Shown here: positions 723-62,027 of the stretch, piece after piece
Layout of the letters: every line of letters begins with the position of its first letter
How positions within the stretch are numbered: the first letter of the stretch is position 1
Source: Tubiluchus corallicola
Taxonomy: Eukaryota > Priapulida > Priapulimorpha > Priapulimorphida > Tubiluchidae
DNA length: 64,000 nucleotides
Reading direction: 5' to 3'
Assembly (NCBI GenBank): GCA_030141605.1
Contig: JAQGDQ010000059.1
Coordinates: forward strand, 436,001 to 500,000
Program-made: the position numbers and the translations under genes
The notes under the pieces: model-generated
Told to the model about the DNA's origin: nothing
Seen by the model: only the letters and a program-made list of their open reading frames with translations
Databases searched by the model: none

Positions 723-817
723 TGAAAATATTCCACTTGCTGTGTCAACCATGTCCATTAATTCAAAATCGTACTCTCTGTCGCCTTCGCTGTTAATGTG
801 TACCGTGCCAGATATGC
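723..817 (-). CDS. Receptor exon 8
   Basis: 95 nt, acceptor TTTTTCAG|GCATATC, donor TTTCA|GTAGGT. It encodes ISGTVHINSEGDREYDF and MDMVDTASGIFS, the G..G.V.I...GDR..D(F/Y)...D motif that closes the ligand-binding domain. The next exon would encode the juxtamembrane region; I found no convincing candidate in 1-722. Confidence 0.88.
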
Positions 818-3800
818 CTGAAAAACAAACAGCGCCCTATGACAACGTCCATAATGGTAGAACTTCATAAAACGAGACTTTTTTATACAACTCAATTGTC
901 TTTTACTAAGTTGTTTTTAATTTGGCATGCATATATTAAATTTATTATTACCATCCCATTTGACGGCACTGTAGGCATAAGTAATAGTAACAATTTAATG
1001 GACCAATGTGTCATGATTAATTTTGCATAATTAAAGTTGTCCTTTTTCAAAAATTGTCTCAAACAAAGCAGCAAGCTATTTTCGAAATAAATCGTACAAC
1101 TACGAATCCGAAGAGGAAAACAGAAACAAGAAAAGAATAGTTGAAAAGTAATAGCCAGGTTATTATTATTATTTTAGATCTAGCGAAAATATAGGCTTTT
1201 TTGAGAATGGGAAAAAGCAAGCAGAACTGTCTATCGATTTTCTTATTTTTACCAAAAGCTGTGTACTGACATGAGGATAACTGCATTACAAAAGATGATG
1301 AAAGTCAAATTTCTTCTCCTAATGCGTTGTTGTTTTCCAGTAACTTGTCAACATTTCAAGCAAAAGTTATTCCTCATCCGCACGTGCCGTACTGGCAAAG
1401 GCATAATAACTTGCATTATATGTCAGGTAGCAAGTCACATTTGGTTGTTCTTTTTGTTTTGTAATTCACACTCCGGTTGCTGTCTTTAAAAAATTAGCAG
1501 ACTAGAGGATAAAGGCAAGTCTGCACTCAGCTTTTAGAGTCTTATATTAGCATTCAAAATGAGTAGGTTTGGTCTTGCAACAACTACCTGCACTTAGGAC
1601 ATAACTGACCCTTAGGTCATAACTTAGGACACAACTTAGGACACAACTAACCCTGCGGTTAGTGCTGGATCTCAGCTAGCAGAATATGGAATTGCCATAA
1701 AACTCTCGTTTACACAGACCTACCTACCGCAGTTTCCATTAATGTCACATCATCCTAATCTTTTTTACTTAGTTACGCCAGTTTAAAGGCGGTGTCGTTA
1801 GGATGCGGTAATGTTCTTGTTTCTAAAAACTCACCTCTATAAGATGCGTTCCACATATTTTCTTTCAAGATGTTGACGTCATGAAAGCTTTTTCTCTGAG
1901 ATATTGTCTTGTTTACAGCAGACATGTAGACGATTATAGCATCATGGAAATTTGATGGTGGACTGTTTAACTATATAATAGCGAAACTACCATCGAAAAT
2001 ATAAGTGTATACACACAGAAATAAAAATAAACTAATTCTTTTGTGTTTGGTCGAATTTGGGTTACACTTATTGAGAAATACGGTCATGTATAAAAAACAG
2101 TATAACTAATATAGGTGTAAGCTACAAAGCAGAATTTACAAAGCATAAATCTTTTACTACTGTAGCGGAAACATTAACTACAGGGATTTACGCATAGCCC
2201 TTAACTTGGCAAGTTTCATCATTGAAGCAAAAGCAAAAATACAGCTTAAGTGCATCATTTAGAAGGGGCGAAAGACTTAGTTCATTTTGATTTGCTGGCA
2301 GCCAAGAGAGATGTTTTATTTCAATTAGGGAAATTACATCATACCAAAAACGAATCTTTTTTATGTCGGTATCCGTATTCTCGCAATGATTTCTCACTAG
2401 CTGTTTTCCGAAAGTCTTCAAAAACTTCTTTATCCTGGGAGAATTTTGCACGCCATAGCAGCAATGACTGATAAGCTACCAGAGCAATCTGAAATTGGAA
2501 AGTTTACATGTCCTTTTGTATTTTTTATATTCTCGCTGTCTTCACTGTGCAGAGAGAATCTTTAGCACTGAAGAATTGTGTACAGTATGTACATTGATGA
2601 TAACAATAGCAAAGTAAATGCGACTCACGGAAAAGGCGCAAAGGGAAAAATAGAAAAAAGGGATTAGTGTTTAGGTGCCTTTTTTCCTGTGCCATATTTA
2701 TCGTGTCGTTATTACGATGCCACTTTCCACATGCTCATATTGTACATTTTTTTTAGTTTTTCGCGACATAATTTATAGCCTACAAAGCATTATGTAAAGG
2801 CAGCAAAGGAGTTTTCTTTCAGTATATGCCACGATTAATCAATAATAATCTGTAGGCAAAACAGAAAATGATTTCTTTGTTTTTGGTCCAGGCCTATGTT
2901 GAAGAAAGCGTAATTTTAAACCCAAAATTTTCAATATTGGATCATTTAAATTTTTCATTTGCTAATCATTCATCTCATTTGGTGTTGGACCTTACTGGAA
3001 TGCTCTACCTACTGACAGGTAGATTCTTTAGTTATAAATTCTTTAAATTTCCCCTAATTCGCATTGTCAATTTATGAATGTATTGTTCTCTTACAGAATC
3101 ATTATCACGCGTTAATTTATCTTTGGGTCCTCTGTAAGGGCCTTCATTCTGTAGGACATTTCCCTTATATGAGCAAAAAAATTTTTCAGGACTTCTATTT
3201 CGCAATTTACCGTTACGATTTTTCCTTTAAATAATTCTGTCAGGTAGAGAACCGAACGAAAACTAATGAAACATCAAGTCTTCACGGTAAGTAAAACTTG
3301 TGGTAATTTAAAAGTCATAAATTGGGGAAATTAAGGTGGCAACTGGAAAAATAAGAAAAAATCAAACTTTCTGTAAGAATGACATGTCATTTGAATAAAG
3401 TTGGCTAAACGTGTTAAGGACTACGCGTAGAGAACATTAGAACTATGCAGATGAATGTGTGAAATCTTTAGTCACTTTTATTTTAAAACACCATACCCTT
3501 TTCTTGTCTTCGTTTCTGGTTTGATGAATCCATTCAGTCAGGTCTTCTGATATTTGTGTTGTGATGAAAGCAAACTCACCCGATGTCATGTTAAGCTTGT
3601 GTGCTGCACGCAGCACTTTCCACAATACGCCGGGTTTGAGAACAGAAAGGTACACAACTAGAAAGGTACAATAGAAGGCAGCCATATGAAAAGCAGAAAG
3701 TTTTCAAGTTTTTCATGTTTACCGCACATTACCAAGCTCCATTGTGAATATGAATGCAAATATTTTATTTCTTTTCGGTATTAAAGTTTTAATATTACAG

Positions 3801-6800
3801 ATCTCACCATGAAACGTAAGATCGCTAAACGTCATTCAATAATAAAAAGAATTATAACTGTAAGTATGGACTTTTTTGAAAATGCTTCGTTCTTGGTTAT
3901 AAAAACTTTCATATATCGGTTAAGATTAATAAGTTAATGATCAGGCGATTTAAGTAGTAACAACAGTCCAATCGAAGTGAATGAATTTAATAAATATTCG
4001 CAGCATTATTTGCTAGTACGTCACAACCACACACACATACACCTTCCCAAAAAAGTACATGTTTAGGATAATTATGTGTGATGTGTTTCAGTTGCTACAA
4101 AGCGAAGAAGGGAGAAAGAGAGAGAAAGAGAGAGAGAGAGGGGGGGGAGAGAAGGGGAGAGGGAGAGAGACAGAGAGAGAGTGTGTGTGTATGTGTGTGC
4201 GTGCGTGCGTGTGTGTTTGTGTGTGACTGAGCATGCTTTGCCTAGTAATTGTGTATCTTTCGTACTTCGTGAATAGTTGGCTTCGTTTCTGAGCATTTGT
4301 TCGTAGTCAGAAGACTGAAAAGTTTTTCCATCAAAAAGCTGTAGATGAGTTACGTAATCTTTTTCTCTTGCAAGCGCTGCGTTGAAAATAGCCAAACCCA
4401 AAGTATTAGCCAAAGATTGAGAAGTATCTACGGTAATGGAAAGATGGCGCCAAGAAAACTGCTCGAGTAAGTTGAAAACGCGAAGCACTATCTCTGGAGC
4501 TGAAGGTCCTACGCGTGTTAGCGTTGTGTATTGGTCTTTATTCACTATTTGAGCTCCTGTGCCCGTTAAAACAGGTATGTTCCAGTCAGCGGCCATTGCT
4601 GCAACTTGTACAGCTCGCGAGTTACATGCGGGACCTGAAACGAAATGAGGATTAAAATATGAGGATTTTAAGGATTGCAGATACAAAATGATGAAAGTCA
4701 ACTGCCATACACATTAATCGCCACAAATATGTTAACCACTCATTTGTGTACTGTGGTTACTGACTGGCAGTCCACATAAATCTAAATTCAAAAAGTATTT
4801 AAAAAAGCGTTCAAAAACTATTTCAAAAAGTGTTAATTTAGTAACTGAACCCGCTCGTTCGAGAAGAAATGAGGAAAATGAAAGGAATGATACTAGTGAA
4901 ATTTCTTAAGTAAAATTTAAAGATCTTTCTTTTAATTGAAGTCACATACACGTGCTGCGCTGAAATTGAACTAGAGATATCCCTTTAGCATTTCATAGAC
5001 TTTACGATAACAACTCTCTACTAAAACCACTGGTCGAGGAACTCGTTTAACTCGAAATGTGGATTAGAAAATGGCGTTAATGTCGCCTTTTTGAATTCAA
5101 AATAGCAAACGGAAATCCGACTCTGTCAATCGATGACTGTGAGCAGTCATTTGTTCCATTTTACAATGTAAATAATACTGAATCAATACTTCATTCTCCT
5201 GATTTTGAGAAAACTTCGGTGCTCCTCTCACAATTTGACCCAGAAAATGAGCTACCTATAACTTACATTAGTAGGAAGCTTTCAAAAGTATTCAACATTT
5301 GAACAAGAGCTTTTGGCAATTGTCTATTCAGCTGAAAAACTTTCTTTTTACTTAGTTGATAGAAGATTTGTGATCAAAATAGCTGCAAAATTACTTGCAA
5401 AACATGAAAGTTAATAACAAGAGAAAGGCTAGACGAATGTTGCTCCTTCAAGTGTATACTTTCACACTTGAGCACATTCCTGCAGTAAAAAATGAATGTG
5501 CTGATGCTCTTAGCAGGCTGTCAATACTTTTGTCACTATTTTAGATAGAAGAGCACAATTTTTTCCTTGGATAACTTTGGAAACTTTAAATCAAAGACTT
5601 CGGAAAGTTAATCCTTAAATGGACATAAGAAAAGAAAAACGGAGAATACTAAATATAAAGTTTCCGCTTACAAAAATGCGACTTTCTCCAACATTTCCAT
5701 TTCATTTCAATTGAGAATTACCTTTGTGGAAATCGAAGAATACTTTACCTATGAAGACATCAGTGTGTTCAGTGAAGTAAAGATCAGCAGCAATGGCGGC
5801 AGCTGAGCCTGTAGCACAGTAATGGTGAGCCGTTAGCACCTTTGAGTGATTGGCGATTTTTTTGCTATGATCAAGGTCACGCCTCAAAACCCTAGAAATT
5901 AGTCATTTTGTAGTATTACCTAGATACAGTAGGTATATAAGTATAACTATAGTAACAAAGGGGTTAAAAACGCAAAAAGCAAAATGGCCACCAAGTTTTT
6001 GTCCACCTGACGTAAATTAAAAGAAATTTTCAGATTAACTGTTTCACCTAATGATTTATTATAAAAACAAAGCAAATCATTTTTGTTAATCCAATCTTGT
6101 TGAATCTAAATACGGCAAGTCTAATAACAGGATGCAATAAAAATAAGCAAAAAAGAAAAGTGTCCAAGGAGGCCGCCACTTTCAAGATGCGCAACAAGAT
6201 TTCTATAGCTAGCATATAAAGGTGACATCATTGTTGTGAGGGCAGATAAGATGACGATTTTTGTGAATGTAGTTTTTCAAGGTCAAGGAATCCGCATCTG
6301 GTGCTCTGGTGCCCAACAGTTTGGCATATGTTGAAGGAATTGACGCCAAAAAACCTTTCCTTCTAGCGAACAAGCCTTTACATGCTTTGCAAACTGACAT
6401 CAATGTGCTAGCTTTGTCATACATAAGTACAACAAAATGAATGTTCCAAAACAGGCATGAGTTTAGTCAATAGTTCTGTTCTAGTAGTGTTTCTTAAAGG
6501 TACAAATGCTTCTGCTATGTGGGCCAAGTCATCTTTTCCTGTCTTTCTGTAAAATCTGAAGTTTGGTGGCATATAGTACTGTCATGGAGTCTAACAATAG
6601 TCTAACAACAGCTTAACATGTTTATTGTAGGTTTGAATGTTTATTGTAGAAAGATTCTAATCGTGACTGAATGATGCTTTTTCTATGAATGCCAGTCGTA
6701 AGAGTCATTATCATTTCCTCAGAGTGGAAGTTCATGCGACTAACTAATAAATCTATCTACACTTTACTAATTTACTAATTACATTTATCAATATAGTTTT

Positions 6801-8643
6801 CGTCTGCCTTACTGCTCCTGCTATACCTTTCGTTGCGTGAGATTAAAGACACTTCTGCCGCCCAATATGCTCTTCAATAAGCTGTTCCTTATTAATTCAA
6901 TGGGATTCTTGAAATTTAGCCTATCTTTACTAGGCAAAACACTTATACAAATACTCACTTGAGGAGGACGTCTTTAGGTAAATACTGACTCTTCTTCGAC
7001 AGAGCGATTTCTATAACCGGGCCTAAACTTGCGAAGCCCAAACGGGACTGGTTGTTGCCACTCAGAATAACCGACATGTGGATTACATTGTAATCGTGCT
7101 CATCTTTATCATGACTGTGGCGAGGTTTACTAACTGAGTGGGTTTCTATTATCACATCAATGTTTTGCGTGTCCCCAGCTTGGAAACTATGATGATCGTC
7201 ACTGTGTGCTTGAAAATCCACTTTGTCTTCACGGAAATTATGTATTTGTGATCCATGGTTAGGATCAGTTTCATCGTGATGGTGAATGACCGGATAATTT
7301 CCTCGTGAGGTGTTGTGTACATGGACCTTAACATTACTTCCATGTGAACTATCTATACGACGATGGTAGTCATGTTCAAAAGCTGCATTGTCGTTCCAGT
7401 TCTGATGACTTTCGTGTGAACTATGGCGATCGTCATCGTTTTGTGCATCCTTATGTGAATTATGATCATCATCGTTGTGTGCATCCTTGTGTGAATCATG
7501 ATGATCATCGTAGTGTGCATCCTTATGTGAATCATCATCATCATCGTTATGTGCATCCTTGTATGACTCCTGATGATCATCGTGGTGTGCATCCTTGTAT
7601 GACTCCTGATGATCATCGTGGTGTGCATCCTTGTATGACTCCTGATGATCATCGTGGTGTGCATCCTTGTGTGAATTATGCTCAACATCATGGTGTGTAT
7701 CCTTGGGTGAATTATGATCATCATCGTGGTGTGCATCCTTGTGTGAATTATGATCATCATCGTTGTGTGCATCCTTGTATGTATCCTGATCATCATCGTG
7801 GTGTGCATCCTTGTGAGTATCATGATCATCATCGTCGTGTGCATCCTTGTGTGAATCATGATCATCATCGTTATGTGCATCCTTGTATGTATCCTGATCA
7901 TCATCGTCATGTGCATGCTTGTGTGAATCATGATCATCATCCTTGTGAGAATCATGATCATCATCGTTGTGTGCATCCTTGTGTGAATCATGGTCATCAA
8001 CCTTGTGAGAATCATGATCATCATCGTTGTGTGCATCCTTGTGTGAATCATGATCATCAACCTTGTGAGAATCATGATCATCATCGTTATGTGCATCCTT
8101 GTGTGAATCCTGATCATCATTGGGGTGTGCATCCTGGCGTGATTCATGATCATCATCGTCTTGTGCATCCATGAGTGATTCATGATCATCATCGTCGTGT
8201 GCATCATTGTGTGAATTATTATCATCATCATTCTGTGCATCCTTGTGTGAATCATGATCACCGATGTAGTGCTCATCCTTGTGTGCGTCATGATCGTCTT
8301 GGTTATGGTCATTTGTGAGTGAATCATGATCATTTTCGTCATGTGAGTCAGAATTCGCGTTGCTCTTTAGATCACCGTTGTGGTCATCATCTTTTTTCCT
8401 TGCGCCACTACCAAATTGCAAGCCGTCACTGCTATTATGTGCATTACCATAAAAAGAATCATCAACACCACGAGAGTTATTATCACTATGAGATCTATCA
8501 CCAAATTGATGGTATGAATCGTCGTGATATGGAGCAAGTGGATGTTGATTTTGTTTACTAGAGCCGTCGTTAGCAAATGATATCACCTCTAATGTCAAAT
8601 GAATCAACAATGTCGCTTTTCTCAAACAAGCAAATTTCCACAT
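723..8643 (-). CDS. Receptor with NPR/guanylyl-cyclase type ligand-binding domain and His/Asp-rich N-terminal repeats (5' eight exons; 3' part outside window)
   Basis: Eight minus-strand exons join in frame: 8643-6959, 5891-5749, 4634-4266, 3657-3497, 2488-2398, 2294-2206, 1895-1835 and 817-723. They total 2,694 nt, exactly 898 codons. Order of domains: signal peptide (residues about 1-24), acidic/His-rich linker, His/Asp 12-mer repeats (about 125-405), then a type I periplasmic-binding-like ligand domain from about residue 518. Family features seen are GPVIEIAL near the domain start, a Cys pair in HYCATGS...VFIGPACNSR with the spacing of natriuretic peptide receptors, WNIPVL, RVGPSAPEIV, LNMTSGEFAFI, NDALKLY, MWNASYRG and INSEGDREYDF. 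In the family this region binds peptide outside the cell and controls a cytoplasmic guanylyl cyclase. The cyclase itself is not in the window, so a cyclase-less clearance-type receptor remains possible. Intron 2 holds a decayed gypsy fragment. Confidence 0.9.
1835..1895 (-). CDS. Receptor exon 7
   Basis: 61 nt, acceptor ATCTCAG, donor AGAG|GTGAGT (consensus). It encodes RKSFHDVNILKENMWNASYR plus a split Gly, matching the conserved M(W/F)N(R/A)SF.G segment. Confidence 0.85.
2206..2294 (-). CDS. Receptor exon 6
   Basis: 89 nt following a 103-nt intron; acceptor GCTGCCAG, donor CCAA|GTTAAG. It encodes NQNELSLSPLLNDALKLY, matching the family motif with (Y/H)DALxLY, then FCFCFNDETCQ. Phase 1 in, 0 out. 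Confidence 0.85.
2398..2488 (-). CDS. Receptor exon 5
   Basis: 91 nt, acceptor AATTTCAG|ATTGCTC, donor AGCTA|GTGAGA. It reads IALVAYQSLLLWRAKFSQDK then EVFEDFRKTA, the A(F/Y)xSLL...F(xx)F segment of the family. A different frame through this interval is also open but is a shadow. Confidence 0.85.
3497..3657 (-). CDS. Receptor exon 4
   Basis: 161 nt, acceptor CCTTTCTAG, donor AAGG|GTATGG. It encodes VVYLSVLKPGVLWKVLRAAH and LNMTSGEFAFITTQ, matching the receptor segment where ligand-domain members have a ...AxxLGMTxGEYVFI pattern. Ends in phase 0. Confidence 0.88.
4111..4225. repeat. (GA)n/(GT)n compound microsatellite
   Basis: Imperfect GAGA tract with a run of G (4111-4180) followed by GT/GTGC repeats. 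It lies in receptor intron 3, 40 bp past the exon 3 donor. Confidence 0.95.
4266..4634 (-). CDS. Receptor exon 3
   Basis: 369 nt. The acceptor TTTCAG|GTCCCGC restores GPACNSR across the junction. The exon carries AAMAADWNIPVLTGTG and TRVGPSAPEIVLRVF, the most conserved stretch of the ligand domain. The donor is CGAA|GTACGA. An open frame runs past the donor into a GA/GT microsatellite but is intronic, because splicing there yields SRIVVYLSV, which continues the family pattern. Confidence 0.9.
5110..5545 (+). pseudogene. Decayed Ty3/gypsy reverse transcriptase-RNase H fragment
   Basis: Broken plus-strand frames read ITYISRKLSK, then after a frame change TFEQELLAIVYSAEKLSFYL, then after a deletion with a stop ARRMLLLQVYTFTLEHIP and NECADALSRL. 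These are the RNase H hallmarks of Ty3/gypsy pol (RKL...E(K/Q)ELLAIV...ADALSR). No LTRs, integrase or gag were seen. The fragment sits antisense in intron 2 of the receptor gene, so it is an old insertion. Confidence 0.85.
5749..5891 (-). CDS. Receptor exon 2
   Basis: 143 nt between acceptor TTTCTAG and donor ATAG|GTAAAG. It encodes VLRRDLDHSKK through DVFI plus a split Gly, and holds the first conserved Cys (HHYCATGS). Phases 2 in and 1 out match both neighbours. Confidence 0.9.
6959..8643 (-). CDS. Receptor exon 1: signal peptide, His/Asp repeats, start of ligand-binding domain
   Basis: The exon opens at an ATG at 8643-8641 with an in-frame TAA three codons before it. It encodes 561 full codons plus two bases and ends at a consensus donor (CTCAA|GTGAGT). 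MWKFACLRKATLLIHLTLEV looks like a signal peptide. Residues 125-405 are 12-residue repeats close to HNDDDHDSHKDA. Residues 518-562 (VIHMSVILSG...GPVIEIALSKK) align with the N-terminus of the receptor ligand-binding domain. The last split codon (AA|G) joins exon 2 in frame. Splice joining ties the repeats and the receptor to one polypeptide, because both are in this one open exon. Confidence 0.9.
7429..8271 (-). repeat. In-frame 36-bp minisatellite coding 12-residue His/Asp repeats
   Basis: About 24 tandem 36-nt units encode variants of HNDDDHDSHKDA. Three composite units have an added 30-nt block (VDDHDSHKDA or similar), giving a 66-nt super-unit. Three adjacent units (HHDDHQESYKDA, about 7555-7670) are nearly identical, a sign of recent expansion. 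Unit length is a multiple of three and no unit carries a stop, so long shadow frames are also open here on both strands. Confidence 0.95.
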
Positions 8644-9134
8644 ACTTGGTGTTTAACTCTTTGCTAAACAAAACTATTGTAACAATTTTAAAGTGCCTTG
8701 CGAAACAAAACCATAAGGGCAAAAAGCAAATGATTAGTCTACGTATTGAGTGCGATGCAATGTTATTATTGGCACAATAATGAAGCTTAAACAATTTCAG
8801 TTTATTGCCTAGTTCAACATCGTCACACTTGCAAAGTAAACGCAGTGATAATGCTTGTAACATGAGGCTTCTCTCTTACCTGTCCTTAAGTCAGGCAGGT
8901 ACGTGAATCTAAGTTACTTGAAGCTGGCAGTTCCAATTACATGTACTCGGTGAATTTAGGAATTGCGCATGTCAGCTGCTAATTGTTTTTACTCAGATGT
9001 TAGTATGCGTCATAAGGGCCTTCTGTATTGTCGAACACCAATAAATTTGTCTTCCTAAATCTTATAATAAGAGCAGTGCACAATGTCAGTGCATCATATG
9101 AAGATGTCAATATCGTCACAGTGAAAAGAGTGCT

Positions 9135-14166: not shown

Positions 14167-17100
14167 TTAACTAAATATGTGTAATTTATCAAATAATCCA
14201 TAGGCAATAAAATCACCTGGAATATAGGCAGTCTTAAAATCGAACGTGTTGTGGCACGGAAACGTGAAGTTCACGTCTTGGAACGCGGGAATAGAACAGC
14301 TTTTCAGTTTCCGCGTAAGTCCTTGAGATAGATCTTGCCTCAATTTATCTATCTTTTTGTCCATTATATTGGTTTCATTGCTATCATTTGCATTTCCTGT
14401 TGGCTTTAAGACTATTTCTTTGGACACAATATCTAGTTTAGCTTGTGGTTTGCTATTTGTTGATTTCAGAAAAACACCTAGGCGTCCATTTATACCCACC
14501 TCAAAACCAGAGCAGGCTTTTTTGTTTGCAGAGCTGTGACAGAGCATTTGCTCACTTGAAAGACGACAGTTGAGAGCAAAGTTTAGGCCATCTATGGGCA
14601 AAGATGATATACTCATTCCAACAAGTGAAAAACGTGCAGAGGGAATAGAAACTGTTGTAAGTAATGCGCCAGTTTCTTTGTTGTATGCTGTAGATTCACC
14701 AGGGACATCTAACTCACCAAAGGCAACCTCTCCAGCAAAAATGTCATTAGGGCCATGATTCGAAACAGGTCTTATTCTTATGTTAGGTTCACTGGGTAGA
14801 AGGTTATTAAATATAACATTATTGCTCAATATTAGGCTGCACTCGTAAGGCTTTGGAAGTAATCCTGAAGTCAAGATGCCAAAATCTGAAGTTGTTCTCT
14901 CCGAGCACAAAACTTGCAAAATCTCTCGATCATCACCGGGTATCACGCAAGTTTTAATTGTTAAGTATTTGACTTTTGTTGGAATAGTTACTTTAACAAT
15001 CTCATAATGGCTTTTGATATCATGCTTCCGAAAGTATGTGGTCAAAACTGAGTTGAAGTCAATGTTACCCGGTGTTTGTACTTTTACACCTTTGATGTAA
15101 AAAACGCCTTTGTTGAGCATAAGTGAGACGGTCGCTGTGTTTTTTCCACTGTGCAAAGACAATGGTAAAATCGCTACCATGGAAGACCCTTTCGCCGTTT
15201 TTATGGGATCCATTACTGATGAATATCGTCCATTTGCTTTTACAACTCCGTATTCAAAACTTCCATCAATGATTTCCATTTGCATTTTTATGCAATTTGA
15301 ATTATTATGTAAAACAGTCAAATGAGGAGGTCCAAAGATGAGATTCCAAGATAAACGGGCTTGGATCACATTCATCTTCATGGTCAACCTTTGAGTTAAA
15401 ATTTCTCTTAGCAGACCTGGTTTTCCTTCCAAATCACCGTGCTGCTGTGACAACATTTTGTTTATTTGACTTAAGTCAACATTAAAGACATAATCCCAAT
15501 TGTTTGTGATGGAACCAAGTCCATGCATTTCTTTTACCACATGACTCTCAGGAAAGTGTCGAGCATGGGAGCTGGCATCGCTGTCAGGTTCCTGCTCATG
15601 CTGCTTCACCTTCAAATTAGTCTTGCAAGTAGCTATGCCGTCAAAGATTAAACTTATATTCAGTAGGGCGTCCAGTTTGGCATCACTGTTATGCTCACTA
15701 TCTGCGACTGCCAATTCCCAGGTAGCAAATGGGCTAACACTCGTATATGCATCATCTAGCAGAAGAAGGTTAGGCGTAATAACGGTCCTATGATCGACAC
15801 TTTCACATTTTACTAACCATTCCATAGAACATGTTTGAAAGACCTTTATTCTCTGATTTTCATACTTCTGCATCATCTCTTTTCCATGAAATCGTAGTAA
15901 AACGTCAAACATATCTGCCTCTCCCGTTTGTACCCCTTCTATTTGAACCCCAATTTTGGTTAGTTTTATTTGGGAATAATTTTTGAACTCTGTGCAATTC
16001 GGATGTATTGTCAGCAAACACGATTGACCTTTTTTGAAAGACATTCCCATGATCTCTTTAGTGGTGTAAAATATAGGTGTATAGAAGTTTCTTTGAAGAT
16101 GGTCACCATATTCCAAGAGAGCCTCGTTGTTAAGGATGACTGCAGTTTTAAGAGTATCTAAATGAATGTTAGGCGGCACGTGAGAATAACCAGTTTGAAA
16201 TTCTTGTAAAATGTTTTGAACATTGACAACCTTCATCAACAGGACAGCAATATAGTTTCTAATGACTAATGCATTATTATCGACCACTTTTTCAGACGTA
16301 GAAGACTTAGCAAAGTTACATAATCTTATAAGAAAGTTGTTGATGTAATCATGTTGTTGCTTCTGCAATAAATGAGATAGCCATTCTTGAAAACATAGGA
16401 GAGTGCTCTCTAAGGAGATGATGTAATCCATTTTCTCACGATTGTTTGGAATCACCTCTAAAATTTCCACTACACAATTCAATGTATATCGAATATCTAA
16501 AGGAAAATTTATTTGACCAAGATCGATGTCATGCTTTGATTTTTGCATGTTTTCAGAACATGTTAAGTGTGCAATAATTTCCGAGTTCAAGGTTTTCACA
16601 GTTGCACTTAGATTTATACAGATATTGTGAATTTGTTTCATGACTGGCAAAACGTCTTCGCTAACGAACAGAACTTCTGGATCTTCTCGCATCATACAGT
16701 TTAACATGTCAAACAGAAGAGTAACCGTAAAAAAATCACTATTTGAGTCGAATTGGTTCTTCAAATTTTGCTCACACTTTCTTAAATCCTCTACGTGTTC
16801 TTTAAATCTGTTTAACAGGCTTTCTAAAAGTTTTTTACTGGTATTAGTGTCCATAAAAACCAACTCCATGCACTCTCCAAATGTGTTGCACATTCCTCTC
16901 AGCTTTTCTCCTAGAATGTATTCAGGGTTTCTCCTCTCTTCTTGAAACAGCTCTTTGCACCCTATTTCTTTACTAGCTGATCCTAGTTCAGTGAAAATGT
17001 GCTGTGTTTGCTTCTGCAAAGCTTTAACGTGAGGCAGCAGCCTGTTATACGGACAACATGAAACGAATCCTGGTTTATCACCAAAACTAATTTCAACACT

Positions 17101-19029
17101 GCACAGATACGTGAGTTCTTGCTGCAAGCCATCAACACTTTCATCTCGTTTCAGGAATGAAAGTAAGAATTTAAGCCAAGATCCAAATTCAACTGCATAT
17201 CGACGAGAATCACCTCTGTTGTACAAAATAAACAGAAGTATCTTAGGCAGTGACATTTGAACAAAATGTAGCACGTTTTTTCGAACTTGTTCCAGTTCAA
17301 CCTTGTCAATTCTCTTAACAACCAAATCAGCTGTTACATCTTGTGAAGTAAACTGGGTTTGAAAATATACAGAATGTGTAAAGAATGCCATCTTGCCTTC
17401 TGTGTCTTTGATAGAGAGAATCCCTGTGGTGCTATAAGTCAACAAAACAAAATTATCTATTGTTGCTTCTGCCAGTACTAAATTAGGAATTGCCTTCTTA
17501 TTGGAACAAATTAGGTTATGAGAAATCACTGTCACTTTTTTACCTGGTAACTGTACTGCAGCACCTGAGTCAATTTCGACTAGATTTGAAACTATTAACA
17601 ACATGTCAATATTGGTGTGTTCTGATACCCTTATAACCAGTTCATTTAATAACACATGTTCTGCATAAATGACTGTTACCACACTAGCAACGACAGTCTC
17701 TGTGTGCTTCACTAAATTCTGCTTTAGTTCTTGTGAACTTGGTGAAAAGTTCAAGAAGGTAAAGTCTGCAAGTGACTTCAATATTGATTGTTGACTGATT
17801 ATATTGCAACATAAATTCCAATATGGTGCTCTATCTTCTACCAGTAACGAACTAACTGGCACCAAAACACAACTTATTACATTTGAGGAATTGTACTTGT
17901 TCAGATACTTTCGTATTTTTCGTCCCTTGATGTGTGGAGTAAGAATACTGTCAACTTGCGAGATTGTCTCATCAAACCAGATTCCCCTTTTAATATCTTC
18001 CTTGAGTTTCTCATTGTTTGCCACAGATAACAACTTTCCATATTCCTTAACAAAGCCGAACCCTTCAGCCAGATTAGGTATAGAAAAGTTTATAAAGTTT
18101 TCAACAGTCATTGTTTGTTCTTCGCTCTTAAGAAATTCAAAGACTACTTTGTCAAAAACAAACACTTGAAAGACCATATCGCCTTGAACAGCATTGTAGA
18201 TGATATGAGTTCCAAACCTATTTATTGCATCACAAAACGAAACAGCTTCCTCCTCTGCAATAGATCCAATCCAAGGTTTTGCACAGTTCAAGGTGTCAAT
18301 GCAAGACTTCAGTTCCGAAGACAACTCTTTTTCTATTTCCTTTACAGTGGACTTTTCTTCACCATTCCTAATTGTATCCGATTCGACGCTTAGCGAACTG
18401 CCCTGCGCTTGTGAGGATTCCATTAGATAACTGTCATCCTTAGTACTATTTCCTTTTTCTACAACGATGCTTAGATCTCTTAAGGATAACATGCTAAACG
18501 TTCTCAGCCTAGCATCAAACTGCGATTGCTGGAACAGGTCTTGCATTGAACTACCTTGTGCAAACTTTTCTATCAGTTTTTTGAATGAACTGTAGCTATC
18601 TGAACAATCGCTAGTTGTTAGCGAACTTAAGTTTTCTGTTACATCTTCTGAAACATCACTTTCAACACTCCTTGAGTCATCGCCATTATCAATTTTTGGT
18701 TGATGCTTGACTTTAACCAATACGAATCCATAATCGTCCGTTGAAAGTGTAATACCAAATAGTTTTTCTAAAATTTGTAGTAATTCTAAATTTGAGGATA
18801 ACAAGGTGCCCAACTGCCATGCTTTGTGATTGTGGATAATTATGTGAGGATAAATAGCGTTAACTAGTTCAGCTGGTGTCTTATGAAAACTGATTTCTAA
18901 ATTTTCCCATTGAAAATTGCCTGTATCCTGGTTGTTGCCACTAAGGCAATGTGGTCCAATGAAAGCTGTTTCGGTGGAGATTCGAAAACAAGAAGCAATG
19001 TTAGTTGTCTCGAGCTTCGAACGAGATTC
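14167..19029 (-). CDS. Large MACPF / stonustoxin-like family protein, single 4.86-kb terminal exon
   Basis: The exon starts at acceptor TTTTTTCAG|GAATCTC and stays open for 1,620 codons to TAA at 14167. Residues 264-284 read SFCDAINRFGTHIIYNAVQG, the MACPF signature (F/Y-G-T-H, six residues after the next one, G), although the second Gly is Asp. The following FQVFVFDKVVF and, further on, CVLVPVSSLL match the layout of stonustoxin-like members, where the MACPF fold is followed by helical regions. Residues after about 480 are unfamiliar and contain beta-rich segments. No membrane segment is seen. A start codon is not in this exon: the frame reaches the acceptor, so at least one 5' exon is missing. 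MACPF proteins oligomerise on membranes in immunity, venom and development. Activity here is unknown, and many stonustoxin-like relatives are not toxins. Confidence 0.75.
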   Translation of the reverse strand, partial: ESRSKLETTNIASCFRISTETAFIGPHCLSGNNQDTGNFQWENLEISFHKTPAELVNAIYPHIIIHNHKAWQLGTLLSSNLELLQILEKLFGITLSTDDYGFVLVKVKHQPKIDNGDDSRSVESDVSEDVTENLSSLTTSDCSDSYSSFKKLIEKFAQGSSMQDLFQQSQFDARLRTFSMLSLRDLSIVVEKGNSTKDDSYLMESSQAQGSSLSVESDTIRNGEEKSTVKEIEKELSSELKSCIDTLNCAKPWIGSIAEEEAVSFCDAINRFGTHIIYNAVQGDMVFQVFVFDKVVFEFLKSEEQTMTVENFINFSIPNLAEGFGFVKEYGKLLSVANNEKLKEDIKRGIWFDETISQVDSILTPHIKGRKIRKYLNKYNSSNVISCVLVPVSSLLVEDRAPYWNLCCNIISQQSILKSLADFTFLNFSPSSQELKQNLVKHTETVVASVVTVIYAEHVLLNELVIRVSEHTNIDMLLIVSNLVEIDSGAAVQLPGKKVTVISHNLICSNKKAIPNLVLAEATIDNFVLLTYSTTGILSIKDTEGKMAFFTHSVYFQTQFTSQDVTADLVVKRIDKVELEQVRKNVLHFVQMSLPKILLFILYNRGDSRRYAVEFGSWLKFLLSFLKRDESVDGLQQELTYLCSVEISFGDKPGFVSCCPYNRLLPHVKALQKQTQHIFTELGSASKEIGCKELFQEERRNPEYILGEKLRGMCNTFGECMELVFMDTNTSKKLLESLLNRFKEHVEDLRKCEQNLKNQFDSNSDFFTVTLLFDMLNCMMREDPEVLFVSEDVLPVMKQIHNICINLSATVKTLNSEIIAHLTCSENMQKSKHDIDLGQINFPLDIRYTLNCVVEILEVIPNNREKMDYIISLESTLLCFQEWLSHLLQKQQHDYINNFLIRLCNFAKSSTSEKVVDNNALVIRNYIAVLLMKVVNVQNILQEFQTGYSHVPPNIHLDTLKTAVILNNEALLEYGDHLQRNFYTPIFYTTKEIMGMSFKKGQSCLLTIHPNCTEFKNYSQIKLTKIGVQIEGVQTGEADMFDVLLRFHGKEMMQKYENQRIKVFQTCSMEWLVKCESVDHRTVITPNLLLLDDAYTSVSPFATWELAVADSEHNSDAKLDALLNISLIFDGIATCKTNLKVKQHEQEPDSDASSHARHFPESHVVKEMHGLGSITNNWDYVFNVDLSQINKMLSQQHGDLEGKPGLLREILTQRLTMKMNVIQARLSWNLIFGPPHLTVLHNNSNCIKMQMEIIDGSFEYGVVKANGRYSSVMDPIKTAKGSSMVAILPLSLHSGKNTATVSLMLNKGVFYIKGVKVQTPGNIDFNSVLTTYFRKHDIKSHYEIVKVTIPTKVKYLTIKTCVIPGDDREILQVLCSERTTSDFGILTSGLLPKPYECSLILSNNVIFNNLLPSEPNIRIRPVSNHGPNDIFAGEVAFGELDVPGESTAYNKETGALLTTVSIPSARFSLVGMSISSLPIDGLNFALNCRLSSEQMLCHSSANKKACSGFEVGINGRLGVFLKSTNSKPQAKLDIVSKEIVLKPTGNANDSNETNIMDKKIDKLRQDLSQGLTRKLKSCSIPAFQDVNFTFPCHNTFDFKTAYIPGDFIAYGLFDKLHIFS

Positions 19030-20534
19030 CTGAAAAAATCGAAAACTTTAGGTATCAGAAGCATAATACTAGCTAGGCTATTTAACTTCTTAAGAAAGGA
19101 TGTATACGCATTTAAGAAAGAACGTATAATCTTGAGTAGTTATCCTCGACGATTACCTAGGTGGCATAGGTGCAATCCAGCAGACCAACTGTGATATATC
19201 CCCACCTCTTACCATTCGAAATAAATCCCACCCTTATATTCCAGAACTACCTAAAATTAATTACGTAAAACCTTATAGGCAAGACTGCTGATCGAACAAT
19301 ATATTACAGAATTTATAAATAGGACAAACATGCAGAAGCAGAAACGTTTTGCCCACAAAGCCCCCAAAACGCCCTTCCGTTGGGAATTTACATTTGAGAC
19401 ACCCGCGTACTGTTGTGCATCTTTTTGGCGAATGTAATTGCACACTGTTTTATTTGTCAAATGAAATTAAATATTATATTTCATATACAACAATTGTTTA
19501 CTGCTTTGTATTCAAATACGTAGGTTACAATTAATTAAGGTGCCTACGTGCAGATCCTGTGTTCTATTCTTAAGCATGATATAACAAAATTTAATGAGTT
19601 TATTTAAACTTTTACTTACCATAACGAATGTCTTAGTATAAAATGCACAAAGTTGTCTATATTGAAACAAGCTCGTGTAATGAATTCATTTTACAATTTA
19701 CTGCACTTCAAATTTTCTTTAAAATAATAACAACAACAAAAACCACAGTTTCTGTTCGTCCCATGACCGATATTACTAATGTAAGTGCACGTTCTTACTA
19801 GCTGTTGCATACGTTTCACTGGGTCAAAGTTAAGCTTTTGCGTGCATTGATATTGCCTGAGGTGGAACCGTGATACATTCAATGACTGTTTGACTACAAC
19901 TGGACCTTTGCGGAATGTAAAGAATTCCCATTTCTCGAGTGTTTGTAGAAATTCGTATACAGAGTGCTAGAGAGTAGCATAAAAGTTATAAAGTCAATAA
20001 AAAGCAGGTTTTATGTATTTTGTAGTGACTGCGGCATTAATTATAATGTTTTATAAATTTTATCCAATGTGCGTCAATTGTGATTACTTATAGCTATCAC
20101 AGCCTGCGCAACATATCGTATCAACGTACCGTACAAAAAGCAAATCATAGAATGTGTTTGTTTCGGAAATGCAAAACACAGGCGTTTATTCATCAAACTG
20201 CATTTATGTGAACCAATATTATGCTTACATAGAGAGAGTGTTGCGAGATTTTTTTCAAAATATCCCAAACACTGTAACCTATTCTTTTTCATTCCAGTCA
20301 TAAGGAGTAACGATGGTGGTGGCTACGACACTAATGATGGCGGCAGTAGTAGTGAAATAAACCAGGTAAAAATTAACAAACAAATCCATATAATTAAAAT
20401 AGCAGTGTAAATAAAGGTGACTCGCACATATGAAAGAAACGCCTTTGAAAGAAAGTAAAACAAGTCTTAGTGGTGCAATTACGTGCATGTTTACAATATT
20501 AATTACTTATTTCCACAAAATCGTTATTTACCCG
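19030..20534. other. Intergenic/5' region of the MACPF-like gene, no exon identified
   Basis: A donor-like CACCTAG|GTAATC with an ATG just before it lies at 19160-19180 on the minus strand, but its phase does not match the 1,620-codon exon. No other candidate was found. Confidence 0.35.
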
Positions 20535-31762: not shown

Positions 31763-33239
31763 GTGCCTAAACCAAGGGCTTGGGCTAGGTGTCAATCAAT
31801 CCCGAGCCAACCTATACCATTCAATTCATTTCTTTGAGATTTTTCATTTGATGTACTACCAGCTATTGTTAATCTGCACTTGAAAAACGTCTGCCCAACT
31901 CTCATTTTTAACTTTTCACGCCTAGCAAAAATTTTCTCCACATTTAAATGGCCCAGATATACCTGTGGGTAAGACCTCAACAACACGTAGCTATGTGCCA
32001 AAAAATATGGCCGTAGTCAAAAGTCCATATGCATATAAGTGTGTCTGTCCTACACCTTCAGCGTAACACCAAATGCTGTGGTGCACAAAAGAATTAGCAT
32101 GGTCCGGGAAGATTTTGGGCTAATGCCTATTTAGGTCACTGGCCTAGGCCAATATGGCATCCTAAATAGCAGTATGTCACAAAAATCTAGGAGTGTTTGG
32201 CAAAGGTCAATTTAGATTGCCGCCGTTCAAAACCACACTCGCTGTGCGAATAGACCCAGCTAATTAGCGTGTTACTATGACTTGAATAAACTGTCTGTAG
32301 AAAGTAGAATGCATTGTCGCATGTAAATGACCTTACGTAGGATTATAGCCAATGAGCACATACTTATGAACAGCGTGGCTTCAGCGTAAAAGGTCCATGA
32401 CTTCGAGGAAAGGGGCAGAGTATAAAAGAGTTATATTTTCACACAAGAGTGTTGCAATTTTGTTTCTTCCAGCTGACCTGGTTCCAAGCGAATATAAAAA
32501 AAAATTTGTTTTGACGCGGGCTTGCAATAACTGAAAACCATAATTCTATCAAATCCTGCAGCGTCCCGTGCCGTCGGGTTGGTTTATTGAATGACGGGTA
32601 CCAAGAAACAGTAAAACTCAGTAAAAGTCGAGATTTTATTGGAAAGTTCAAACATACTTGATGCCTTGGTGCTACTTTCAAACAAGCATCGAAATTCTTT
32701 CGCTTTTGGACAAGTTCCTGCTTTTCATTTTTAAACTTACTAAGAGAATTTATTTTCCTGTTTTTTATTAATAATTTCACAAAGCAATGCTAAGAACTTA
32801 ACTATGTACTACTTAAAAATAGGTAGCTTATATAATGCGAAATTTTTTTCTATATTGAACTGGATTTATCGAGCAAATTTCACTTGTTTCTTTCATTTCA
32901 ACAAATTAAAAAGACGAATTCATTTGATTTTCTTAAAGTGAAAGTAGTACTGAAATCGCTGTGTCGACTTATAATCATATGTGCACGTGATGGAACAAAC
33001 ATAATTGTTTATTCCACGTGATGCAATAATTAATTAAATTTTGATACCAAACTCGGCAGACAGGAAATTTGAAAGTAATTAATTAATTATTTGTTATCTT
33101 AATGTCAGTATTTCAGGCTCAAAATTAATCATATAAAAATCAATTAGAATTGCTCAAGTCCTAACATTGAAGATGCTGAAATGGTTGACCAGCTATTAGG
33201 GATGAACTTTTTACTGACATGATCAACGGAAACACAGTA

Positions 33240-33370
33240 ACTTAGCGACTATGGCGTCGGCCTTGTATGCCGAACGTTCCTGGTTCAAATCCTGGCTGTG
33301 TTTCAACTTTCCACATTTCCTCCGTTTCGGGTTGGGTATGAAAGTTTAATTAACTGCGAATTTGTTTCAT
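33240..33370 (+). mobile_element. tRNA-derived SINE
   Basis: The head resembles a tRNA: an anticodon-arm-like CGGCCTTGTATGCCG (7-nt loop, UGU anticodon position) and a T-arm CCTGGTTCAAATCCTGG. The tail TTTCAACTTTCCAC...TTTCGGG matches the 22.5-kb copies. No paired acceptor stem, so it is not a functional tRNA gene. Confidence 0.6.
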
Positions 33371-34942: not shown

Positions 34943-35178
<236 letters not shown>

Positions 35179-35726
35179 ATAATAAACGCTTTATTTCACA
35201 AACACAAATCAACATAAGTACGGTTAACAAATCACAAACTTAGGTAAATGACGCATACAGGAACACGTCCCTACAAATTCAGGATTCTTTTAAAGCGTAG
35301 TTGAACAAAAAATACAATACAAAATACAAAAATACAATACAGATGTATCACAGCACAAGTTGACTGGCATACATTAATTCTTAGCAAAATTAAATCGCAC
35401 CTCTTAATTTAGAATCGCGAGTAGCTGAAATTTTATTAACAGTTTAATTAACAGTTTCTTAACTTCACATCTCCACTCTTGTTTAAAAATATAAACTGAT
35501 CGATATCACACGTGGTTGTGAATTCGGGAAAACAGCAGATGTTTGGCTTAAGAACCAAAATTCTAATACAAAACACAATAAAAATAAAATTTAGCATGAA
35601 TTTATCAAAGAAATGATGTGCGTGGGTTTTGAAGTCTGTTTCAAACATTCGTTGGTCAAGTATGTTTCAAGCAAGGTTTCTGGGGCTATTTTTGGCGATA
35701 ATTAGACCAAAATTCTTAAGTAAAAC

Positions 35727-38379: not shown

Positions 38380-38792
38380 AGCCCATGTTTTATTCATCAT
38401 GCAACATCATTTTAAATTTTTTTATTTGTAGCAAACAAGCTTAGAATCTGCAGCAATCGAAGATGATACCCAGAATGAAATGATTGTTGTTATCATCACG
38501 CATTTATGACTTTGATTTTATATTCGTAAAGGTGAAGCTTTTGATCTTAAACGTGGTTTCTGTCATATGTAGCAGCCTTCCTTCCAGGTCATCTGAGGAG
38601 AGGTCTAATATCCCATTACCCGTCACTTTTTTTAATTAATCTATATTTGGGATGTCACTAGCATATCACTTTATTACCTCAGTAGGGCAACACACTGACT
38701 CACTTCTTGATATATCACTCACCCACCCATACATTCGCTCGATAATTTACTTGCTCACCTATCCGAAACTTATTAAATTACATATTTGCCAT

Positions 38793-39311
38793 TTATTCAT
38801 TCATTCACTCATTCATTCATCCATCCATCCATCCATCCATCCATCCATCCATCCATCCATCCATCCATCCATCCATCCATCCATCCATCCATCCATCCAT
38901 CCATCCTTTCACTCATTCGTTCATTCATTCATTCATTCATCCATTCATTCATTCATTCATTCATTCATTCATTCATTCATTCATTCATTCATTCATTCAT
39001 TCATTCATTCATTCATTCATTCATCCATCCATCCATCCATCCATCCATCCATCCACTCATTCGTTCATTCATTCATTCATTCATTCATTCATTCATTCAT
39101 TCATCCATTCATTCATTCATTCATTCATTCATTCATTCATTCATTCATTCATTCATTCATTCATTCATTCATCCATCCATCCATCCATCCATCCTTTCAC
39201 TCATTCGTTCATTCATTCATTCATTCATTCATTCATTCATTCATTCATTCATTCATTCATTCATTCATTCATTCATTCATACATTCATTCATTCATTCAT
39301 CATTCATTTAA
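38793..39311. repeat. (ATCC)n/(ATTC)n tetranucleotide array with 144-bp higher-order period
   Basis: Blocks of ATCC alternate with blocks of ATTC. The marker CATTCGTTCATTC recurs with its G at 38919, 39063 and 39207, exactly 144 bp apart. Confidence 0.95.
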
Positions 39312-44174: not shown

Positions 44175-44180
44175 TTTATT
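44175..44180 (-). terminator. Poly(A) signal AATAAA overlapping the kinase stop codon
   Basis: CTCAATAAACAG: the TAA stop lies within AATAAA, implying a very short 3' UTR if this signal is used. Confidence 0.4.
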
Positions 44181-45312
44181 GAGAAACGTGATCGGCATCA
44201 GCACTATCACAATCTGGTAACGACAAGATCCATTCTCGTAGCCGCCTTTCCTTGAATTCCTTTTCTTCTAGTAGTTCTGTGCCACTATTGGTTTTACCAG
44301 CTGCATTATATTTGGACGCATTTAGTTCTCCACTGTCTGACCTGCTGCCATTGATCTCAGATGTAGCATATCTGGAAGCGTTGCGCCGCCGGATCCACCT
44401 ATTATCCATGTACTTATAGATCTCCTCGATCTTACATCGTCGCTCTGGTTTCACCTCCAGAAATCTCCGGAAGAGGCGCATCAGTCGCGGTGAAAACTTG
44501 CGCCACTGCGATGGTATCTTAACAGTCTTTCGTTTCTGCCAAAGTAAGAATTCGTTATAGTATGAGTCGTCGAACACTGCCTTTTCCCAAGGAAAATTTC
44601 CTGTAAGGCAACAGTACAATGTCACGCCAAAGGACCAGACATCGATATTGGTCTCACAACTGTAACCCTCATTATAGACGGCATCACATATTTCTGGTGG
44701 AGTGTACGGAATACTGCTGTTCTTCTTCTTTACCAGAGTACCGGCCTTTCTTGATAGACCAAAATCTGTCAACTTCACCTTCTGAATGTTCTCATCAAAG
44801 ACTAGAATGTTTTCTGGCTTTACATCTCGATGCACAATGTCCTTGCTGTGCATGAACTCAATGGCTGATGATATTTGTTGCATAATTTTCTTCACACACT
44901 CTTCAGGTAGACCTTGCTGAGGCGGAATTACCTCAAAGAGGTCACCGCAAGGGGCGTACTCTTGCACAAACACGTAAGAATGTTTTGTTTCGAAGGCCAC
45001 GTCGTATGTCATGACAATGTTTCTATGTGGAGAGAGATAATAACTCAGTTCAAACTCCCTCTGAAAGTCCTTTAACTTGGTATCGTCCTTGCTCATGTGC
45101 TTGAGCGCGATCACAGTTTCGGTCTTCCGGTGCTGGGCAAGATGCACTTTTCCATAGGTACCCTCGCCCAGCAACCGGATTATTTTGTACTCCTCGTCTA
45201 CATTGACCATGCGGAGGTCCTTCCCGGTTGTCGGCAAACCGGCCGCACTAATCCGCTTAGCATTCGAGACGAACATGTTCGTGTCTAACTGAGCGCAGTT
45301 TAAAGACGGCAT
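44176..45312 (-). CDS. SBK1-like: SBK1-like (SH3-domain-binding kinase family) Ser/Thr protein kinase, 378 aa
   Basis: Single coding exon from ATG (45312) to TAA. Kinase landmarks: glycine loop GEGTYG (49-54), lysine ALK (K71), EYAPCGDLF, HRDVKPEN (161-168), DFGLS (183-187), TPPE in place of APE (204-207), DVWSFGV, CLTGNFPWE and SQWRKF. EYAPCGDLFEVIPPQQGLPE and LTGNFPWE are typical of the SBK family, whose members phosphorylate Ser/Thr in the cytoplasm with poorly known substrates. All catalytic residues are present, so an active kinase is expected. The tail after residue 310 is Ser/Asn-rich and then acidic; the proline-rich SH3 ligand of mammalian SBK1 is absent. The stop codon is embedded in AATAAA. 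A 5' UTR acceptor (TTTGTTTCAG) lies at 45385, so transcription starts further upstream. Confidence 0.9.
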   Translation of the reverse strand: MPSLNCAQLDTNMFVSNAKRISAAGLPTTGKDLRMVNVDEEYKIIRLLGEGTYGKVHLAQHRKTETVIALKHMSKDDTKLKDFQREFELSYYLSPHRNIVMTYDVAFETKHSYVFVQEYAPCGDLFEVIPPQQGLPEECVKKIMQQISSAIEFMHSKDIVHRDVKPENILVFDENIQKVKLTDFGLSRKAGTLVKKKNSSIPYTPPEICDAVYNEGYSCETNIDVWSFGVTLYCCLTGNFPWEKAVFDDSYYNEFLLWQKRKTVKIPSQWRKFSPRLMRLFRRFLEVKPERRCKIEEIYKYMDNRWIRRRNASRYATSEINGSRSDSGELNASKYNAAGKTNSGTELLEEKEFKERRLREWILSLPDCDSADADHVSQ

Positions 45313-45384
45313 CTTGCTTGTCTTTTGTATCTTTGCCAGTTTCTCTTGATAAATTTTTCACTCTGCTGTTTTGTTTATATTCAT
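45313..45384 (-). other. 5' UTR part of the kinase exon with upstream ORF
   Basis: After the acceptor GTGTTTGTTTCAG the first three bases form an ATG that opens an eight-codon upstream frame (MNINKTAE, stop) before the kinase ATG. May reduce translation. Confidence 0.5.
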
Positions 45385-52144: not shown

Positions 52145-52408
52145 TTCCAAGGGTTTTCTATTATTTTCGTTTGTTAAATACGTTTTCATATAATAAATTG
52201 ATTAACTTTTTTCTGTGCCTTTCTTTCTGTGCTTCTCTTCTGGACCTCTAAGGAGGAAAGTGTAGTTATCCATAATAGTTTCCTTAAATATGCTATTATT
52301 TAACAGTACTATTTAATATAACTTGATAGATCTGTACAGCCATAAAAGAATGTGGCATGCACTTAACTTCTTGATGTAATTTTTAACAATAATTCTTGAT
52401 AACATTAT

Positions 52409-52452
52409 ATTATTATTATTATTATTATTATTATTATCATTATTATTATTAC

Positions 52453-52524
<72 letters not shown>

Positions 52525-52539
52525 CATTATTATTATTAC

Positions 52540-52634
<95 letters not shown>
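52409..52634. repeat. (ATT)n microsatellite with 87-bp internal duplication
   Basis: The variant pair ATC (C at 52438) and ACT (C at 52452) recurs at 52525 and 52539, each 87 bp later, i.e. 29 units. Confidence 0.95.

Positions 52635-61487: not shown

Positions 61488-62027
<540 letters not shown>

Follow-up and report, generated by a model that had tools for sequence, protein, structure and literature searches.

The window, which is the whole 64,000-nucleotide stretch of DNA that was analysed (C1834:436001-500000, from a genome of 343.5 Mb in 2344 contigs), contains on its minus strand the first exons of a predicted receptor guanylyl cyclase gene. Exon 1 (8643-6959 in window coordinates, minus strand) lies in an open frame of 565 codons (8652-6955) that follows directly after an in-frame TAA, and it starts at the first ATG, at 8643. 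It encodes, in a single frame, a candidate signal peptide, a Cys-free, His- and Asp-rich extension of about 490 residues, and the first part of a ligand domain:

8572..8643, minus strand: candidate signal peptide, residues 1-24 (MWKFACLRKATLLIHLTLEVISFA), from the first ATG after the TAA and hydropathy
8350..8571, minus strand: polar, non-tandem N flank, residues 25-98, with 8% His, from composition
7411..8349, minus strand: His/Asp region, residues 99-411, with 22% His, 39% Asp+Glu and no Cys, from Tandem Repeats Finder and unit count
7099..7410, minus strand: non-tandem C flank, residues 412-515, with 16% His (17/104), from composition
6959..7098, minus strand: first part of the ligand domain, residues 516-561, with the donor at 6959, from donor score and NPR-A alignment

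The candidate signal peptide is atypical and "not textbook": its highest 11-residue Kyte-Doolittle mean is 1.85, and the hydrophobic core holds one His and one Glu. At the other end, the exon passes from the His-rich C flank into YNVIHMSVILSGNNQSRLGFASLGPVIEIALSKKSQYLPKDVLLK, which is the beginning of the ANF-receptor ligand domain. The repeat array is also open on the plus strand (280 aa, window 7332-8174) and in a second minus-strand frame (337 aa, window 7353-8366), and both of these frames are by-products of the 36-nt period. Since a period divisible by three allows several open frames, the openness of the array proves little. For residues 1-98, the coding frame contains no stops and the other five frames contain 2, 4, 6, 6, and 19, while the corresponding numbers for residues 412-561 are none versus 6, 7, 8, 12, and 19. 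The possibility that the exon 1 frame is a mere by-product of the 36-nt period was rejected, as the flanks outside the repeats have just one open frame. We consider exon 1 to be coding because of these stop-free flanks together with the ligand-domain homology downstream. That one exon joins a candidate signal peptide, His/Asp repeats, and the first part of the ligand domain had been proposed in a preliminary description of this DNA, and the 565-codon frame, which is stop-free in its non-tandem flanks, bears this out. At the genome level, the fusion of the His/Asp extension to the ligand domain is confirmed to be real.

The donor at 6959 (AA/GTGAGT) has the top score among the donor-like sites of exon 1. 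It joins in frame to the acceptor at 5891, and the later exons, with predicted ends, follow in matching phase:

5749..5891, minus strand: ligand-domain exon 2, with the first conserved Cys of the domain, from Pfam, NPR-A alignment and phase
4266..4634, minus strand: ligand-domain exon 3, with the GPAC motif, from Pfam, NPR-A alignment and phase
3497..3657, minus strand: ligand-domain exon 4, from NPR-A alignment and phase
2345..2488, minus strand: ligand-domain exon 5, from NPR-A alignment and phase
1835..1970, minus strand: ligand-domain exon 6, with NFHDAIIVY and MWNASYRG, from NPR-A alignment and phase
723..817, minus strand: ligand-domain exon 7 (ISGTVHINSEGDREYDFELMDMVDTASGIF), with a weak donor, from phase; the gene continues to the left of the window

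The preliminary description had counted seven further ligand-domain exons in frame with exon 1 and a product of 898 residues. The in-frame joining is predicted here as well, but only six of these exons lie within the window and the next one is located to its left, and the joined part within the window is 910 residues long in the present model. The joined ligand domain matches the Pfam family ANF_receptor (PF01094) with an E-value of 3.1e-34 (119 bits versus a cutoff of 25.4), and its matches among the PDB chains include NPR-A (9.5e-28) and NPR-C (2.2e-24). The alignment to NPR-A begins at residue 20 of the ligand-domain query. Inside the window, the ligand domain has 2 Cys in 395 residues, which we take to be one Cys pair of NPR-A, presumably joined there by a disulfide. 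This pair and the two juxtamembrane Cys of NPR-A are kept, whereas the NPR-A Cys in drpCff and in viyiCss have both been replaced.

The remaining domains are encoded in the same orientation in the 40 kb to the left of the window (C1834:432898-413455):

C1834:432898-432736, minus strand: juxtamembrane segment, from NPR-A alignment
C1834:430914-430833, minus strand: transmembrane helix, from NPR-A alignment
within C1834:430490-421146, minus strand: cytoplasmic and kinase-homology exons, from Pfam and NPR-A alignment
C1834:420541-420392, minus strand: dimerisation helix, from NPR-A alignment
within C1834:415637-413455, minus strand: cyclase, from Pfam and NPR-A alignment

The juxtamembrane segment contains two Cys (PRCGFEGNAPEC) and is followed by a single transmembrane helix (GWTIAMISVAMAAVLFVVVFLIYR), both within C1834:432898-430833 and with predicted splice ends. 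When joined, these exons encode 646 residues that match NPR-A (PDB 9bcv) with an E-value of 1.6e-180 over residues 2-644, and GC-C with an E-value of 2.3e-112 over residues 91-642. The kinase-homology domain, in which some exon ends are uncertain, was identified by PF07714 (3.9e-28) and PF00069 (3.2e-20), and the cyclase by Guanylate_cyc PF00211 (2.2e-62). The active-site stretches TIYFSDIVGFT, YKVETIGDAYMVVSGLP, and LKMPRYCLFGDTVNT are identical to those of NPR-A (9bcv), and the encoded cyclase is probably catalytically competent. In this model, the exon-7 donor and the splice ends of the first cytoplasmic and kinase-homology exons and of the VAPELL exon are weakly scored, the first residues of the VAPELL exon are missing, and the C-terminus is incomplete, as it was cut where homology stops.

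The predicted gene encodes an NPR-type receptor guanylyl cyclase in which the domain order is complete and the same as in the vertebrate NPR-A/NPR-B (GC-A/GC-B): ligand domain, transmembrane helix, kinase homology, dimerisation helix, and cyclase. This agrees with the preliminary assignment to the NPR/guanylyl-cyclase class, for which the ANF_receptor and NPR-A matches speak together with the cyclase exons, sought and present on the left side. An NPR-C-like or soluble receptor without a cyclase was rejected as a candidate once these exons were found. No second receptor cyclase that could represent a tandem paralogue was found in C1834:296001-600000, where all 19 tblastn matches are exons of this gene. 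An intron of the receptor cyclase gene harbours, on the other strand, an intronless open frame of 469 aa that resembles an ionotropic receptor (C1834:427421-428830, plus strand; Lig_chan 8.9e-18).

The matched NPR-A chains have no counterpart of the roughly 490 residues of the extension, and the match begins at residue 18 of 1dp4 and at residue 19 of 8tg9. Tandem Repeats Finder places an array at 7428-8295, with a period of 36 nt, 25.1 copies, and a score of 915. Counted by residues, the regular array extends from residue 134 (nt 8244) to residue 411 and consists of 24 units, so that the previously suggested number of about 24 is correct. The array was also described as about 280 residues of 12-mers; by our count, 20 of the units are 12-mers with the consensus KDAHNDDDHDSH, three are 8-mers, and the last one is a 14-mer. 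The regular units are preceded by a degenerate unit of 16 residues.

In total, the extension (residues 25-515, 491 residues) contains 92 His, 151 Asp+Glu, 40 Lys+Arg, and no Cys, and is probably disordered, judging from this composition. Assuming a His pKa of 6.5, its computed net charge is about -107 at pH 7.8, -65 at pH 6.5, -40 at pH 6.0, and -24 at pH 5.5. In residues 99-411, successive His are spaced by 3, 4, or 5 residues in 46 of the 68 steps. From its chemistry, a His/Asp composition of this kind would be expected to be pH-responsive and to act as a ligand of divalent metal ions. The C flank contains 17 His in 104 residues; shuffling of bases within codon positions gave a mean of 10.8 and reached at least 17 in 15 of 2000 shuffles, and shuffling of all bases did so in none of 2000. 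The N flank contains 6 His, which is not above the mean of 6.0 in the codon-position shuffles; this number was reached by 1111 of 2000 of these and by 47 of 2000 shuffles of all bases.

Our best explanation of the extension, to which we assign a probability of about 0.4, is that it tunes the cGMP output of the receptor to extracellular metal or pH, a function that the preliminary description had also put forward. The mature N-terminus would be the strongly acidic, His-rich extension, placed directly before the ligand domain and forming a polyanionic brush on an ectodomain that is presumably dimeric. Such a brush could be loaded with divalent metal ions, with His and Asp as ligands, or with protons. 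The loading would alter its charge and compactness, and the altered brush may in turn change the access to, or the stability of, the ligand-binding dimer and thereby tune the cGMP output. The features that suggest a sensor are the stop-free frame into the ligand domain, the His/acidic composition, the pH-dependent computed charge, and the His enrichment in the C flank. We infer that the gene is expressed and spliced as modelled, that the extension is disordered and the receptor dimeric, that metals or protons are bound, and that there is any effect on activity.

Receptor guanylyl cyclases are otherwise known for sensing peptides, CO2, and temperature. The idea of a sensor has precedents in GCY-14 and histidine-rich glycoprotein. 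In Caenorhabditis elegans, His-174 in the ectodomain of GCY-14 is reported to be needed for the sensing of alkaline pH, and the protein also senses Na+ and Li+ (PMC5225109). GCY-14 is thus similar in idea, as a receptor cyclase ectodomain that uses His for pH, but differs in that the available part of the report names a single His and describes no His-rich tandem array (PMC5225109). The tandem His repeats of histidine-rich glycoprotein are described as sensing Zn and pH, with Kd values in the micromolar range and an altered affinity for partners (PMC5372734). The likeness is one of chemistry, since both have tandem His-rich repeats, but those of histidine-rich glycoprotein are of the GHHPH type and belong to a soluble plasma protein. 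Neurexin-1beta, a protein of the neuronal surface, also carries a His-rich domain at its N-terminus, which seems to originate with the vertebrates (PMC12894811), but it represents another receptor class. The preliminary description knew of no described member with such an insert. In the accessible parts of the open-access literature, to which our survey was confined, we found no receptor guanylyl cyclase whose ectodomain is His-rich or carries repeats.

There is no sign of homology between the extension and GCY-14 or histidine-rich glycoprotein. Residues 99-411 gave a single weak match among the PDB chains at E<=0.01, to a BUD13 homolog (E 0.0044, 19.6 bits), which is probably an effect of charge composition. 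Histidine-rich glycoprotein, whose His-rich region may or may not be represented among the PDB chains, was not matched in this search, which, like the Pfam search of exon 1, is limited by the low complexity of the sequence. For residues 500-910, no match at E<=0.001 was obtained among the 7993 candidates that shared most words in a large protein collection, which seemingly holds few or no animal receptors and thus says nothing about conservation.

While tuning by metal or pH is a reasonable interpretation, it is almost as likely that the extension arose by near-neutral growth of a minisatellite in a linker that was disordered beforehand, the receptor being an otherwise ordinary orphan guanylyl cyclase, in which case it would have no specific role and may do nothing to signalling. 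The expansion would have been tolerated since its product is soluble and lacks Cys, and since a unit of 36 nt, or 12 codons, keeps the frame. The DNA of three consecutive units is identical, and a super-unit of 60 nt (12+8 residues) occurs three times (4.1 copies with 92% matches in Tandem Repeats Finder), which suggests that the array has expanded recently and argues for growth of this kind. The pN/pS between 20 of the units is 0.77 in the coding frame, with a bootstrap interval of 0.48-1.37 that spans 1 and is rough, as the units are related by descent. In the other frames, the values are 0.41 (frame +1), 2.5, 0.55 (one antisense frame), 8.3, and 0.91. Since the coding frame does not have the lowest value of the six, selection on the protein is not clearly evident from the units. 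In favour of constraint, the deviations from the unit consensus number 35, 6, and 27 at codon positions 1, 2, and 3, so that substitutions generally remain within the set H, D, N, Y, K, Q, and E, although the base make-up of the unit may also explain this.

Near-neutral growth is also consistent with the presence of many GAT-rich tracts in the genome. A search with the DNA of exon 1, which skips simple repeats and thus gives a lower bound, resulted in at least 31 matches in the same genome, namely the gene itself and 30 others at 65-76% identity. No second full-length match to exon 1 was found in this search. The best 7 of the 30 others are of low complexity, six of them GAT/GAC-rich and one a tract of the AACACAACAATGATG type, and the 12-residue unit was not found in the inspected stretches of these seven. 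Against near-neutral growth, the unit is more complex than a simple trinucleotide repeat, the His enrichment goes on into the non-tandem C flank, and 490 residues lacking stops and Cys would be long for neutral drift.

Compared with tuning by metal or pH in general, a stronger version, in which a dedicated multi-site sensor for metal or protons has been added to the receptor and the loading of the His/Asp brush switches or gates cGMP signalling, appears unlikely. Somewhat less probable still is that the extension positions the receptor rather than senses, by anchoring it to extracellular matrix, mucus, or mineral, or by clustering receptors; the clustering, with the same low probability, would run through phase separation or metal cross-linking. 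Its His/Asp composition is compatible with such a role, and His-rich extracellular proteins are reported to condense or to cross-link through metals, as in squid beak (PMC6884462) and in the mussel byssus, where imidazole coordinates metal (PMC6477608). However, searches of exon 1 identified no matrix-binding domain, with no Pfam family at E<=1 and no match in NCBIfam. Least likely of all is that a different signal peptide comes from an exon further upstream, which would be spliced to an acceptor within exon 1 and leave most receptors without all or part of the repeat. In favour of this, the candidate signal peptide is atypical, the upstream sequence has a strong donor-like site at 8880 (minus strand, score 7.2), and exon 1 contains acceptor-like sites at 8109, 7641, 7605, and 7569 (1.6), 8588 (1.3), and 8133, 7785, and 7352 (0.6). 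Against it, the three ATGs in 9020-8881 each reach a stop before 8880 (by eye, in this stretch), so that an exon ending there is more likely to be 5' UTR, and none of the internal acceptors exceeds 1.6, a score surpassed by 7 of the 13 chosen acceptors (a weak argument, as 5 of the 13 score lower and all are predicted).

Natriuretic peptides have been reported from vertebrates only, and outside the vertebrates most of the ligands of such receptors are unknown (PMC6878697). A receptor with an extension of such extreme His/Asp composition is a testable candidate for direct control of cGMP by metal or pH, and provides a case for asking whether a receptor can acquire a sensor through the growth of an in-frame minisatellite. 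If the stronger version with a dedicated sensor is true, the gene would encode a metal- or acid-responsive member of the receptor guanylyl cyclase class, and if the extension is neutral, it would still show in an extreme form how much the ectodomain of a receptor can tolerate.

Elsewhere in the window, there are long simple-sequence arrays of CATT, AG, ATG/ATA, and ATT at 38790-39308, 61518-62025, 34960-35185, and 52404-52634, respectively, and the long open frames in the CATT and AG arrays are probably spurious. A single-exon open frame of 1626 aa (14167-19047, minus strand) has a weak match to MACPF below the cutoff (E 0.0077) and none in NCBIfam. Another single-exon frame, of 393 aa (44176-45357, minus strand), encodes a protein kinase (Pkinase 2.7e-55), and a tRNA gene is located at 33231-33303 on the plus strand (Rfam, 45 bits).
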